In this document: positions 4,439 to 25,213 of the stretch, in pieces | Position numbering within the stretch: the stretch's first letter is position 1 | Layout: each line of letters opens with the position of its first letter | Origin: Nitrososphaerota archaeon | GTDB lineage: Archaea > Thermoproteota > Nitrososphaeria > Nitrososphaerales > Nitrosopumilaceae | Assembly: GCA_027315065.1 (NCBI GenBank) | Contig: DAHUYT010000003.1 | Location: 1-33,823 of the forward strand | Direction: 5' to 3' | Length of the DNA: 33,823 bases | Notes under the pieces: model-generated | The model's database searches: none | Told to the model about the DNA's origin: nothing | Seen by the model: only the letters and a program-made list of their open reading frames with translations | Program-made: the position numbers and the translations under genes

Positions 4439-5833
4439 TTGTCAAATCTTAATGCTCCTCTACCGCCAGCGCCTGTGTTGATGACATGTTTTGGTCATTG
4501 CGGAATAGGTTTGGGTGCGGAGGCATACAGAAGACTGTTGATTGATGTAGGAGCTAATCCTCTCAAGCCTACGCTAAAAGGAGAAAAGGAAGAATCCCGC
4601 GTTTTGAAAAGATATGGTAGCACAATTCTACGATTTCCAAATTCTTATGGAGGAAACGATATACCGCTGATCCCTAGGGCATTGTTGGTTGACTTGGATC
4701 CAAGAGCAGCTAACCTGATATTGCAATCATATCCTGATCTGTTTGCACTCCGCGATAAGCATGTAATCCATGGGGCAGGAGGTGCTGCAAGAAACTGGGC
4801 TGAAGGACGAAGTAGATTTACCAATGAAGTCACTCAAAAGTTTGATTTGCAAAAACAACTGTCTGGTCTATCGCCCGAACCAGTAAGGGGTTTTACAATA
4901 CCTTTTGCAATGGGTGGGGGAACCGGAAGTTCATTTGCTAGTGCGTTTATGCAATATATAAAAAAGGATTCCAAGGAGCATGCAACAATAGCATCATTTG
5001 GACTCTTGCCCGAATTTGGATGGGACCCGGTGATCTTCGAAGCGGCTGCAATTAACATCGTAATGAATCTTGAATACCAGATAAAATATAGTGACTGTTC
5101 GATTCTATTCTCTAATAAAAAACTAAGGGAGGTGGCTCATAAAAATGAGAAAAGAATTGAAAAAATACCGTCAATTATTGATGATCTTCCAAAAGAGCAT
5201 GAAATAGGCTGGAAGGATTACAAAGGCATGAACTTGATCGCTGCAAACGCAATATCCATGTTCATCGCGTCGTTTGCAAGAGAGACAGAATGGGATATGT
5301 CAAATTATAGGACATGGCTTGCAACAAAGAAGCCGAGATTTGCAGTATCATGGGTTATTCCAGTAATGCCAGATGAAAAACAATGGGGAGATGACTTGAT
5401 GTCTGCAGGCAAGGGAAATACCATGAATGCAATTATAGACCACATCCACAAGAAAAATGATGCGGTATTGTTTGATATAGACGAAAATGACATAAGAGAC
5501 AAAGGAGGACAACGCGACTCTTGTGTCGCGCTAGTCAAAATCAAGGGAGAATTTGATGTAAAGGAAAGAGAGGTTCTAAAGAACATGATAAAGGATAGGT
5601 TTCATATTGAAGACTCTAGAATGATATTTGTCAAGATTCCAATACTAGAAACAGAACAAGCCAATGTTACAATACTTGTAAACACCAAGGCAATCGGGCC
5701 TAAGATTTTGGAGATAGCAAGTGAGGCAGAAGCATCCTGGGATAGTTACAAGGAAGAATATGGAAAATGGGGGCTAACAACTGAAGAGTTCAAACAAAGC
5801 CTAATGGACGTCGTTCATCAGTTTAGTGCTTAG
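4439..5833 (+). CDS. Artubulin-type tubulin/FtsZ superfamily GTPase
   Basis: 464 residues, close to eukaryotic tubulin length (about 450) and longer than FtsZ. Tubulin landmarks appear in order: a G-box-like N-terminus (F-G-H-C-G-I-G-L-G, residues 18-26), V-D-L-D-P-R (like the D-L-E-P of tubulin), A-G-G-A-A-R-N-W-A-E-G (tubulin N-N-W-A-x-G; Asn119-Trp120), the T4 signature G-G-G-T-G-S-S (159-165), N-L-I-A-A-N-A-I (helix H8 region), and K-P-R-F before a beta strand as in tubulin Y-P-R. This fits artubulin, described from Nitrosoarchaeum (Yutin and Koonin 2012), rather than FtsZ or CetZ. It should bind GTP and form cytoplasmic filaments; its cell role is not known. At the T7/H8 site the sequence is W-D-M-S-N-Y (285-290): an Asp is kept but Asn289 may replace the catalytic acid. 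A coiled-coil gene starts 2 nt after the stop. Confidence 0.85.
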   Translation: MSNLNAPLPPAPVLMTCFGHCGIGLGAEAYRRLLIDVGANPLKPTLKGEKEESRVLKRYGSTILRFPNSYGGNDIPLIPRALLVDLDPRAANLILQSYPDLFALRDKHVIHGAGGAARNWAEGRSRFTNEVTQKFDLQKQLSGLSPEPVRGFTIPFAMGGGTGSSFASAFMQYIKKDSKEHATIASFGLLPEFGWDPVIFEAAAINIVMNLEYQIKYSDCSILFSNKKLREVAHKNEKRIEKIPSIIDDLPKEHEIGWKDYKGMNLIAANAISMFIASFARETEWDMSNYRTWLATKKPRFAVSWVIPVMPDEKQWGDDLMSAGKGNTMNAIIDHIHKKNDAVLFDIDENDIRDKGGQRDSCVALVKIKGEFDVKEREVLKNMIKDRFHIEDSRMIFVKIPILETEQANVTILVNTKAIGPKILEIASEAEASWDSYKEEYGKWGLTTEEFKQSLMDVVHQFSA

Positions 5834-5835
5834 GT

Positions 5836-6387
5836 ATGGTAGACTTTAATTTCTTGGAACAAGTTGCAACCCAAATCAAGAGAAATAGGCAACAACTAAC
5901 CGATGTTGAAGATGAACTATCCACAATAAGTTTTAGAATTCATGAGATTCCACTCAAGATATCAACTGAATCAAATTTTGCAAAGATGATTGGTGAACAA
6001 TACAACGATGCCACCAAAGAATTAGAATCTGCAAAGGAACGACTCATGGCAGAAAAGGAAACTCTAACAACTAAGATAAACGAAGACATTTCTACGTTTA
6101 TCACTGAATTTACATCGCAAGAACTTGTAATTCCGCTGGAACCTAATCCAAAAATTGCGGATGGTAACACTCTTTTCAAATACAAAGGTGATTCAGCGTT
6201 TAGGAACATATTTGATATATTAAGCGAGCTTTTAGGATTAAGTTCGCCCATCCTTGTAAAAGATGTTATGTTCTCTCCTACTGAGATTGTAATCAAAGTA
6301 ACAGATGAATATGAGGCAAAGCAAAAGTTCCTGAGCAGTATTAACGAAGTACAGAAGACTCTCTTAATCAAACGAAGAAAGAACTAG
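5836..6387 (+). CDS. Coiled-coil protein coupled to artubulin, function unknown
   Basis: 183 residues. Residues 1-90 are helical, charged and heptad-like (Q-V-A-T-Q-I-K-R-N-R-Q-Q-L..., A-K-E-R-L-M-A-E-K-E-T-L), as expected for a coiled coil. Residues 95-183 look like a compact alpha/beta domain ending in a basic tail (K-R-R-K-N). There is no signal peptide or membrane segment. The ATG lies 2 nt after the artubulin stop, so the two are almost certainly co-transcribed and made together. I do not recognise the family. The arrangement suggests a filament-binding, capping or tethering partner of the artubulin; that is inference from position and coiled-coil content only. Confidence 0.75.
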   Translation: MVDFNFLEQVATQIKRNRQQLTDVEDELSTISFRIHEIPLKISTESNFAKMIGEQYNDATKELESAKERLMAEKETLTTKINEDISTFITEFTSQELVIPLEPNPKIADGNTLFKYKGDSAFRNIFDILSELLGLSSPILVKDVMFSPTEIVIKVTDEYEAKQKFLSSINEVQKTLLIKRRKN

Positions 6388-18638: not shown

Positions 18639-18760
18639 GGTTCTGTCAAGTTATCGGCTCCGTGCCTTCAAACCCAACTTGCTTCCATCCGCTCTGAGGA
18701 TTACCGGCGTTCCCAGGTTCCCCTTCATCGCTTCATCTGAGAGCCCACTAGGATTGCAGA
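18639..18760 (-). ncRNA. Probable omega-RNA scaffold / right end of the tnpB element
   Basis: On the minus strand the last part of tnpB and its right end (to TTGACAGAACC at 18639-18649) are strongly conserved with the decayed copy at 2970-3100 although that copy no longer codes, which suggests selection or recent shared origin at the RNA/DNA end. In IS200/IS605 elements the omega-RNA covers this region, with a guide of about 16-20 nt just beyond the element (18638 down to about 18620). The 5' limit given here is approximate. Confidence 0.5.
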
Positions 18761-19826
18761 ACCGTTGCAACCCCTTGTAAGATATGTTCATGGCAGCTAC
18801 GACGTCACGGTCTATTGTTCTCTTACAACTACTGCACCACAATTGACGATGTTGAAACATGTCCTCTTGGGTTCTACTCCCGCATATTGGACACAGTATG
18901 CTGGTGCGCACCGGTGATACGAATCGTACTGGTATTCCTTCCCATGCTGATTTGTATTGTATCTGTCTTTGCAGCTCATAGAAAGGCCAAGAGTTCATCA
19001 TGCCTCTGTACTTTCTACCTTGATAGTTTCCTTTTCTGTACAGTTTTCTAATTCCCTTGATATCTTCCAATACAATCATGGAGCGAGATTCTCTTGCTTT
19101 ACTTACAATATCTTTTGAGATTCGGTTTAGAAACTGTCTTACTCTTCTTGCCATTCTGTTACCTAATTTTGAATAGACTTTCTGCCTTATCCTGTGGTCA
19201 TTGCGTTTGAATGATGATGTTACTTTTTTGGTTCGATATGTGATCTTTGGAAGGTCCTCCATGTTATACATTGTTACTTTATCAGAATTTCCAACTGTAA
19301 CATTTCGTAGGTTCCTGTCTATTCCGACTACATTATCGCATTTAGTTTCATCAATTTCCTTTTGTATGCCAAGACTGATTGAATCTGGCGTGATTACAAA
19401 TGACTTGACCTTGAGTGACTTGTCTGAGAGAATTGCTTGTGTATGGTGGTTAAGTATAATGTGAACATATCTTCTATCTCCCACTGGAATTGAAAGTAAC
19501 ATTCCATTTATCTTGAAGCCGTAACATGAAACAAGATATGGTTTTTGTACGTATGGAGATTTTGGAGTCCTGCCTTCTCTAATTGAGCGCTTCATTTGGG
19601 CTAGCCTGCCACAGGCCTGAGAGATGGCGGTAAGCTTGTATCTTGACTGGATATCATATTTTTTGAGATCATGGTAGTGATTTGATGAGAATTTTTTCAG
19701 TGTTGATATCTTGTTATCAAGACCTATTCTGATACATTCGTTTACCATTTGACGGAATGTTTCCATCATGGTACAAAGTTCTTGGTTTTGTGCAAATCGT
19801 TGTCTTACTGCTTTGTATACTAACAA
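18651..19826 (-). CDS. tnpB: RNA-guided nuclease TnpB, IS200/IS605 (IS1341-type) element
   Basis: 391 residues, full TnpB length. RuvC residues are intact: Asp170 (V-V-G-I-D-R-N), Glu254 (I-V-L-E-D-I), and Asp339/Asp341 (I-D-R-D-V-V-A-A-M-N). The zinc ribbon C-P-I-C...C-S-S-C is complete, and the N-terminal half has the basic helical character of the family. TnpB uses an RNA from the element's right end to cut DNA at the donor site and favours retention of the element. No TnpA transposase is present, so movement would need one in trans. TTG start at 19826. It lies between hemL and 16S, divergent from the rRNA operon. A decayed relative is at 2836-3100. Confidence 0.9.
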   Translation of the reverse strand: MLVYKAVRQRFAQNQELCTMMETFRQMVNECIRIGLDNKISTLKKFSSNHYHDLKKYDIQSRYKLTAISQACGRLAQMKRSIREGRTPKSPYVQKPYLVSCYGFKINGMLLSIPVGDRRYVHIILNHHTQAILSDKSLKVKSFVITPDSISLGIQKEIDETKCDNVVGIDRNLRNVTVGNSDKVTMYNMEDLPKITYRTKKVTSSFKRNDHRIRQKVYSKLGNRMARRVRQFLNRISKDIVSKARESRSMIVLEDIKGIRKLYRKGNYQGRKYRGMMNSWPFYELQRQIQYKSAWEGIPVRFVSPVRTSILCPICGSRTQEDMFQHRQLWCSSCKRTIDRDVVAAMNISYKGLQRFCNPSGLSDEAMKGNLGTPVILRADGSKLGLKARSR

Positions 19827-20169: not shown

Positions 20170-21640
<1,471 letters not shown>

Positions 21641-21648
21641 AGAAAATA

Positions 21649-21681
21649 ATTGGGTTGTGTGGATTCACACACTTTCTTCAA
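21649..21681 (+). other. 16S rRNA processing stem, 3' strand
   Basis: Pairs with 20077-20111 (GTGGATTCACACAC is the core of this strand). It begins a few bases after the 16S 3' end. The 16S-23S spacer that follows (to about 21787) has no tRNA-Ala, unlike most euryarchaeal operons. Confidence 0.8.
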
Positions 21682-21753
21682 CAAAAGATGCAACTGGATA
21701 GGAAACTATCCGGTGAAGGATGTAGCTGGTAGTCGAGACCCGGCACTAGCGAT

Positions 21754-21787
21754 GATCGTCGTGTATAGTCGTGTAATATGTGACTGA

Positions 21788-21788
<1 letters not shown>
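21754..21788 (+). other. 23S rRNA processing stem, 5' strand
   Basis: GATCGTCG-TGTATAGTC and ATGTGACTGAA pair with 25178-25213 after 23S. Together they enclose the whole 23S including its intron. Confidence 0.75.
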
Positions 21789-25177
<3,389 letters not shown>

Positions 25178-25180
<3 letters not shown>

Positions 25181-25213
25181 AGTCACATACATAGAGACTA
25201 TATGCGACGATTC
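25178..25213 (+). other. 23S rRNA processing stem, 3' strand
   Basis: TTCAGTCACAT, GACTATA and CGACGA pair with 21754-21788. It closes the 23S precursor; transcription probably ends soon after, though no clear T-rich terminator is visible before 25290. Confidence 0.75.

Follow-up and report, generated by a model that had tools for sequence, protein, structure and literature searches.

Artubulin and its downstream neighbour are a co-inherited gene pair across an order-level clade of archaea

Artubulin and the gene directly downstream of it, here called gene 2, are inherited together, side by side, throughout an order-level archaeal clade, changing genomic context and duplicating together, and the status of gene 2 as a conserved artubulin partner is strongly supported. 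The pair was analyzed in a stretch of 33,823 nucleotides (the window) that makes up a single contig (G000:C33) in the genome of an archaeon congeneric with Candidatus Nitrosotalea devanaterra. Judging from sequence, we hypothesize, with a probability of about 0.68, that the two genes encode one small system, in which a GTP-binding artubulin would be acted on by an obligate accessory protein, the product of gene 2. Artubulin itself has been known since 2012; in the literature that was searched, neither its obligate partner nor the likely absence of the catalytic T7 acid appears to have been described before.

The artubulin locus

The arrangement reported in the earlier note, a tubulin-like gene with a coiled-coil gene 2 nt downstream, agrees with the ORF coordinates (Table 1), and in relatives the spacing between the two genes ranges from 2 to 18 nt. 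The distance from artubulin to the preceding gene is 179 nt and that from gene 2 to the following gene is 73 nt; because of this spacing, the pair looks like a self-contained two-gene operon. Strong purifying selection acts on both genes (dN/dS ~0.02-0.08 in the cases that allowed an estimate of dS), and therefore neither is a chance ORF.

Table 1. Features of the artubulin–gene 2 locus, in window positions
Feature	Positions	Strand	Basis or description
Artubulin	4439..5833	+	TTG start, 464 aa, complete tubulin fold
T1-like nucleotide loop, G19-H-C-G-I-G24 (tubulin G-Q-A/C-G)	4493..4510	+	Alignment to alpha-tubulin
Tubulin signature loop T4, G159-G-G-T-G163	4913..4927	+	Motif conservation
Segment aligned with the tubulin T7 loop and the beginning of helix H8, R-E-T-E-W-D-M-S-N (281-289)	5279..5305	+	Alignment
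Intergenic gap, artubulin stop to gene 2 start	5834..5835	+	2 nt
Gene 2, artubulin-associated protein	5836..6387	+	ATG start, 183 aa, no Pfam/NCBIfam family
N-terminal helical hairpin of gene 2 (helices 4-52, 60-92)	5845..6111	+	AlphaFold2 model, pLDDT 90.5
Proline element of gene 2, I-P-L-K (38-41)	5947..5958	+	Sequence comparison of gene 2 proteins
C-terminal alpha/beta domain of gene 2 (106-182), basic helix at end	6151..6381	+	AlphaFold2 model

Elsewhere in the window, 16S and 23S rRNA genes occupy positions 20170-25181, where the many listed ORFs are spurious, and no tRNA was found between the two genes. Group I introns are a known but uncommon feature of archaeal rRNA. One such intron (Rfam RF00028, 54.8 bits) is located at 23800-24146 (+) inside the 23S rRNA gene (21789-25181). 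The rRNA operon is adjoined by a gene for a TnpB/IS605 OrfB-like protein (18651-19826, -) with a Cas12f1-like TNB domain (E = 3.7e-19).

ORF 4439-5833 encodes a full-length artubulin, whose sequence and predicted fold both place it nearest to Asgard and eukaryotic tubulins and not to FtsZ. The Pfam Tubulin model PF00091 matches it with E = 2.1e-17 and 64.4 bits against a cut-off of 33, and its identity of 76-81% to the Nitrosarchaeum and Nitrosotenuis copies that were fetched makes it an orthologue of the described artubulins. The nearest solved structures by sequence are Asgard tubulins (Heimdall, Loki; E = 6e-18), followed by gamma-, alpha- and beta-tubulin; the best 60 PDB sequence matches are all tubulins, and FtsZ is absent among them. 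Foldseek aligned the whole chain of the predicted structure with beta-tubulin (E = 5e-20, TM ~0.70), pointing to a complete tubulin fold, C-terminal domain included, in a model of modest confidence (pLDDT 72).

In a GTPase-domain tree that took in artubulins, tubulins and FtsZ, artubulins and tubulins split from FtsZ with support of 100/98. The grouping with FtsZ considered in the earlier note thus did not occur, and its assignment of the gene to the artubulins is upheld by Pfam, PDB matches, fold and tree alike. The alpha-tubulin reference sequence was identical to a PDB chain, and the other tubulin and FtsZ stretches were taken from HMMER alignments. Artubulins formed one clade on a long branch of 2.34 changes per site, with their place inside the tubulins unresolved, as has also been reported (PMC13394414); they have been described as nearer eukaryotic tubulins than CetZ-like proteins (PMC9871819). 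A search of 72,556 plasmids gave no artubulin relative. Weak matches were seen on two viral contigs (L185 933-1256 and L186 3123-3446), covering 99 residues with ~29% identity to artubulin residues 95-193.

Judged by its sequence, artubulin retains intact nucleotide-binding loops. The T1, T3 and T4 motifs are conserved across artubulins: G19, H20, G22 and G24 of the T1-like loop are found in 75 of 75 proteins, and the T4 loop is invariant in 77, save for one G159A substitution. Y261, N226 and N265 are conserved as well.

The T7 acid, Glu254 in alpha-tubulin and Asp in FtsZ, drives hydrolysis in tubulin and FtsZ, and beta- and gamma-tubulin do without it. In an alignment of moderate quality, based on a profile of low diversity, Glu254 falls on N289 of artubulin, where Asn is present in 76 of 77 artubulins, and the catalytic acid has likely been lost. 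The invariance of residues 281-287 is partly ascertained, because these residues also served as a retrieval pattern. Since Asn289 occupies the Glu254 position, and the acid is missing from gamma- and beta-tubulin too, hydrolysis by artubulin may be slow or may need another factor.

Conservation and genomic context of the pair

In each of the 76 named loci with a continuing contig, gene 2 comes immediately after artubulin; the named-genome set comprises 80 loci, the remaining 4 of which end at contig ends. In a 400-genome sample of the class, which overlaps with the named set, the artubulin profile matched 88 genomes. One match (G066, E = 9e-6 over 61 residues) was discounted as non-artubulin, and the other 87 genomes all carry gene 2. 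A gene 2 missing beside other artubulins, the outcome envisaged in the earlier note, was therefore not encountered, and the former description of artubulins as rare is out of date. The two genes are on separate contigs in G002, G262 and G307; both are cut at contig ends in G002 and G307, and in G262 artubulin ends ~48 nt before the contig end. Outside the class, no artubulin was found in a 398-genome sample of the phylum.

Two complete artubulin–gene 2 pairs are present in each of two genomes (G062 and G384). Artubulin is gone from G018 (Nitrosotalea) and G178, where a gene 2 fragment remains at the expected position, and from G072, where gene 2 is frameshifted. These co-losses are supportive, not decisive: a single deletion could account for each of the first two, and the frameshift might stem from an assembly error. 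Two further genomes, G186 and G257, have an artubulin without its N-terminal GTPase part, whose C-terminal half stays open (L135 3810-4883 and L136 2871-4206), next to an intact gene 2; gene 2 may therefore outlast artubulin, or need only its C-terminal half.

The flanking genes differ in at least 10 contexts while the pair stays together, and these shuffled flanks are an internal control for chance synteny. The pair is flanked by Na+/H+ exchanger, TPR and small-protein genes in Nitrosotalea, by Nre and an exosortase-like protein in Nitrosotenuis, by Snf7 and an MscS-type channel in Nitrosarchaeum, by VWA and an unknown 314-aa gene in family f10, and by AAA-associated and other genes in family f13. 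In the deep f10 lineage, the 314-aa gene (L122 9928-10869 and equivalents), which has a weak PaaX_M match only, follows gene 2 and may be a lineage-specific third member.

Snf7 was proposed as the artubulin partner in 2012, for Nitrosarchaeum (Yutin and Koonin, PMC3349469); were ESCRT-III (Snf7/CdvB) the true partner, gene 2 would be incidental. The Nitrosarchaeum group does carry Snf7 directly upstream of artubulin (Pfam E = 8e-8), but it is the only group to do so: in the neighbourhoods that were read, Snf7 is not beside artubulin in Nitrosotalea, Nitrosotenuis or deeper lineages, both Snf7/CdvB genes of the window's genome are on other contigs, and Snf7 was likewise reported apart from artubulin in Nitrosotenuis uzonensis (PMC3835317). 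With this distribution, we consider an ESCRT-III partnership that leaves gene 2 incidental very improbable. A conserved hypothetical gene, not further specified, appears in the neighbourhood figure of PMC3349469 and could be gene 2 or a different gene.

The gene 2 protein and its relatives

The coiled-coil character first ascribed to gene 2 is matched by a high-confidence helical AlphaFold2 model, in which helices 4-52 and 60-92 precede a beta-beta-alpha-beta-beta-beta-alpha domain. The two helices are read as a hairpin, with a conserved turn between them (G53, D58), and the last 15 residues of the protein have a net charge of +1 to +6 in each of the 75 complete proteins. For gene 2, every Pfam and NCBIfam model stayed below its cut-off, Snf7 was absent from the Pfam matches listed for it and from the families listed for 25 relatives, and no DNA-binding HTH was recognized. 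A PDB sequence search gave coiled-coil matches only, and a search with the predicted fold against solved structures gave no match at E <= 0.001. Pcc1/KEOPS (PF09341) was considered for the C-terminal domain, which is similar in topology, and was rejected at an hhalign probability of 0.2%; the scattered Pfam matches of gene 2 relatives to ZapB, MAP65/ASE1, Mis12, Dam1, PqqD and HMMR (best E ~0.0006-0.2) were attributed to chance coiled-coil similarity.

Within the family of the window's genome, every full-length gene 2 is accompanied by artubulin. G085, where gene 2 is at a contig end, was left out of judgement. Six sampled genomes of family f2, probably Nitrosocaldaceae, carry a full-length homologue without artubulin; it comes after a radical SAM gene in the three f2 genomes whose ORFs were read. 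A further 28 sampled genomes of family f8, probably Nitrososphaeraceae, carry a ~130-aa C-terminal form, again without artubulin. Four f8 loci were read (L037, L038, L141, L142), and in L037, L141 and L142 the short form lies near rpS19e-like, RNase P Rpr2 (Pfam E = 1.2e-13) or Nep1-like genes. The term "dedicated", applied to the protein earlier, holds in part: gene 2 is found beside artubulin wherever this could be checked, but its family also exists without artubulin in f2 and f8, and its core function may therefore predate artubulin.

The placement of the short forms beside Rpr2 and rpS19e-like and Nep1-like ORFs, and the position of the full-length homologue behind a radical SAM gene in the Nitrosocaldus-like family, would suit an older protein with a function of its own, perhaps related to RNA or the ribosome, that shares a promoter with artubulin by co-transcription habit. 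However, mere habit should break at least once, and the window's family has full-length gene 2 only with artubulin, though all other neighbours shuffle; we regard a shared promoter without a shared function as quite improbable. Another reading is that gene 2 acts on artubulin before or after assembly, either as a folding or stability factor or as a GTPase-activating protein replacing the missing T7 acid. The Asn at the T7 position and the tight genetic coupling of the two genes are consistent with such a role, but homologues of gene 2 occur where no artubulin exists to fold, and no Pfam match of gene 2 to tubulin cofactors or prefoldin exceeded the cut-off, so that we hold this role to be unlikely.

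The proline element, four residues with an invariant Pro39, is present in 76 of 76 artubulin-linked gene 2 proteins and missing in 6 of 6 f2 homologues. This pattern makes it the most specific candidate contact with artubulin.

Proposed role and comparison with known systems

It is strongly indicated that gene 2 acts with artubulin, and direct binding of its protein to artubulin is likely. We hypothesize that artubulin would assemble head-to-tail into protofilaments, and that these filaments would turn over slowly or need help, because the T7 acid is replaced by Asn. The gene 2 protein would bind artubulin via its helical hairpin, with the proline element of the first helix as the best candidate contact. 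The basic C-terminal domain might then anchor, bundle or cap the filament, a guess drawn by analogy from Bklc with bacterial tubulins (PMC5372463) and TubY with TubZ (PMC7762940); the more general role of a filament partner (linker, cap or nucleator), suggested beforehand, is a reasonable one.

The window genome's own FtsZ homologue (L132 1021-1974, -, G000:C8) has a degraded GTP motif, AGKSGSA instead of GGGTGTG, and in this resembles the FtsZ of N. maritimus, whose motif is AGKAGSA and which does not polymerise (PMC3684127). Cdv proteins would probably stay the division machine, with the artubulin pair as an add-on for shape, positioning or segregation. In its fullest form, to which we give an even chance, the proposal is a two-protein cytoskeleton: a tubulin without the usual T7 acid would depend for assembly or anchoring on a hairpin protein from an older family, recruited through gain of the proline contact element, and would form the sole tubulin-superfamily polymer with a working GTP site in these cells.

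Several known systems resemble the pair in part. BtubA/B of Prosthecobacter are prokaryotic tubulins encoded in an operon with a non-tubulin protein, Bklc, which binds filaments and membranes (PMC5372463); that system has two tubulins, whereas here there is one, and Bklc consists of TPR repeats, whereas the gene 2 protein is predicted to combine a hairpin with an alpha/beta domain. TubY of the TubZRY plasmid partition system (PMC7762940) is, like gene 2, a coiled-coil accessory protein with a basic C-terminus that adjoins a tubulin-like GTPase. In contrast to that system, gene 2 is without a recognized HTH and the artubulin pair is chromosomal; no TubR-like gene was seen among the artubulin neighbours, and with no plasmid relative either, the pair does not qualify as a type III partition system. 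OdinTubulin and Asgard AtubA/B (PMC13394414; PMC9871819) are also archaeal tubulins, and coiled-coil neighbours have been noted for archaeal tubulin-like genes in general (PMC9871819), OdinTubulin among them; however, the neighbours of OdinTubulin are reported to be genome-specific, whereas gene 2 is conserved across an order, and artubulin sits on a very long branch.

Artubulin was described in Nitrosarchaeum in 2012 (Yutin and Koonin, PMC3349469) and in Nitrosotenuis uzonensis (PMC3835317). Published accounts stress the Snf7 neighbour, whereas the analysis here identifies gene 2 as the conserved partner and shows artubulin to be much more widespread than was then known. The literature search, which left most subscription journals and preprints outside, returned no paper naming gene 2 as a conserved artubulin partner, and no function or polymer of artubulins is reported in the literature examined. 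Because it is always encoded directly beside artubulin in ammonia-oxidising archaea and their relatives, gene 2 is the best new lead to the function of these archaeal tubulins. The obligate partner offers a concrete handle for experiments on the right protein pair, instead of the Snf7 suggested earlier. A possible kinship between artubulins and the ancestor of eukaryotic tubulin has been under discussion since 2012, and if the pair makes filaments, it would show how, in the dominant ammonia oxidisers of soils and waters, a single accessory protein controls a lone tubulin close to the eukaryotic family.
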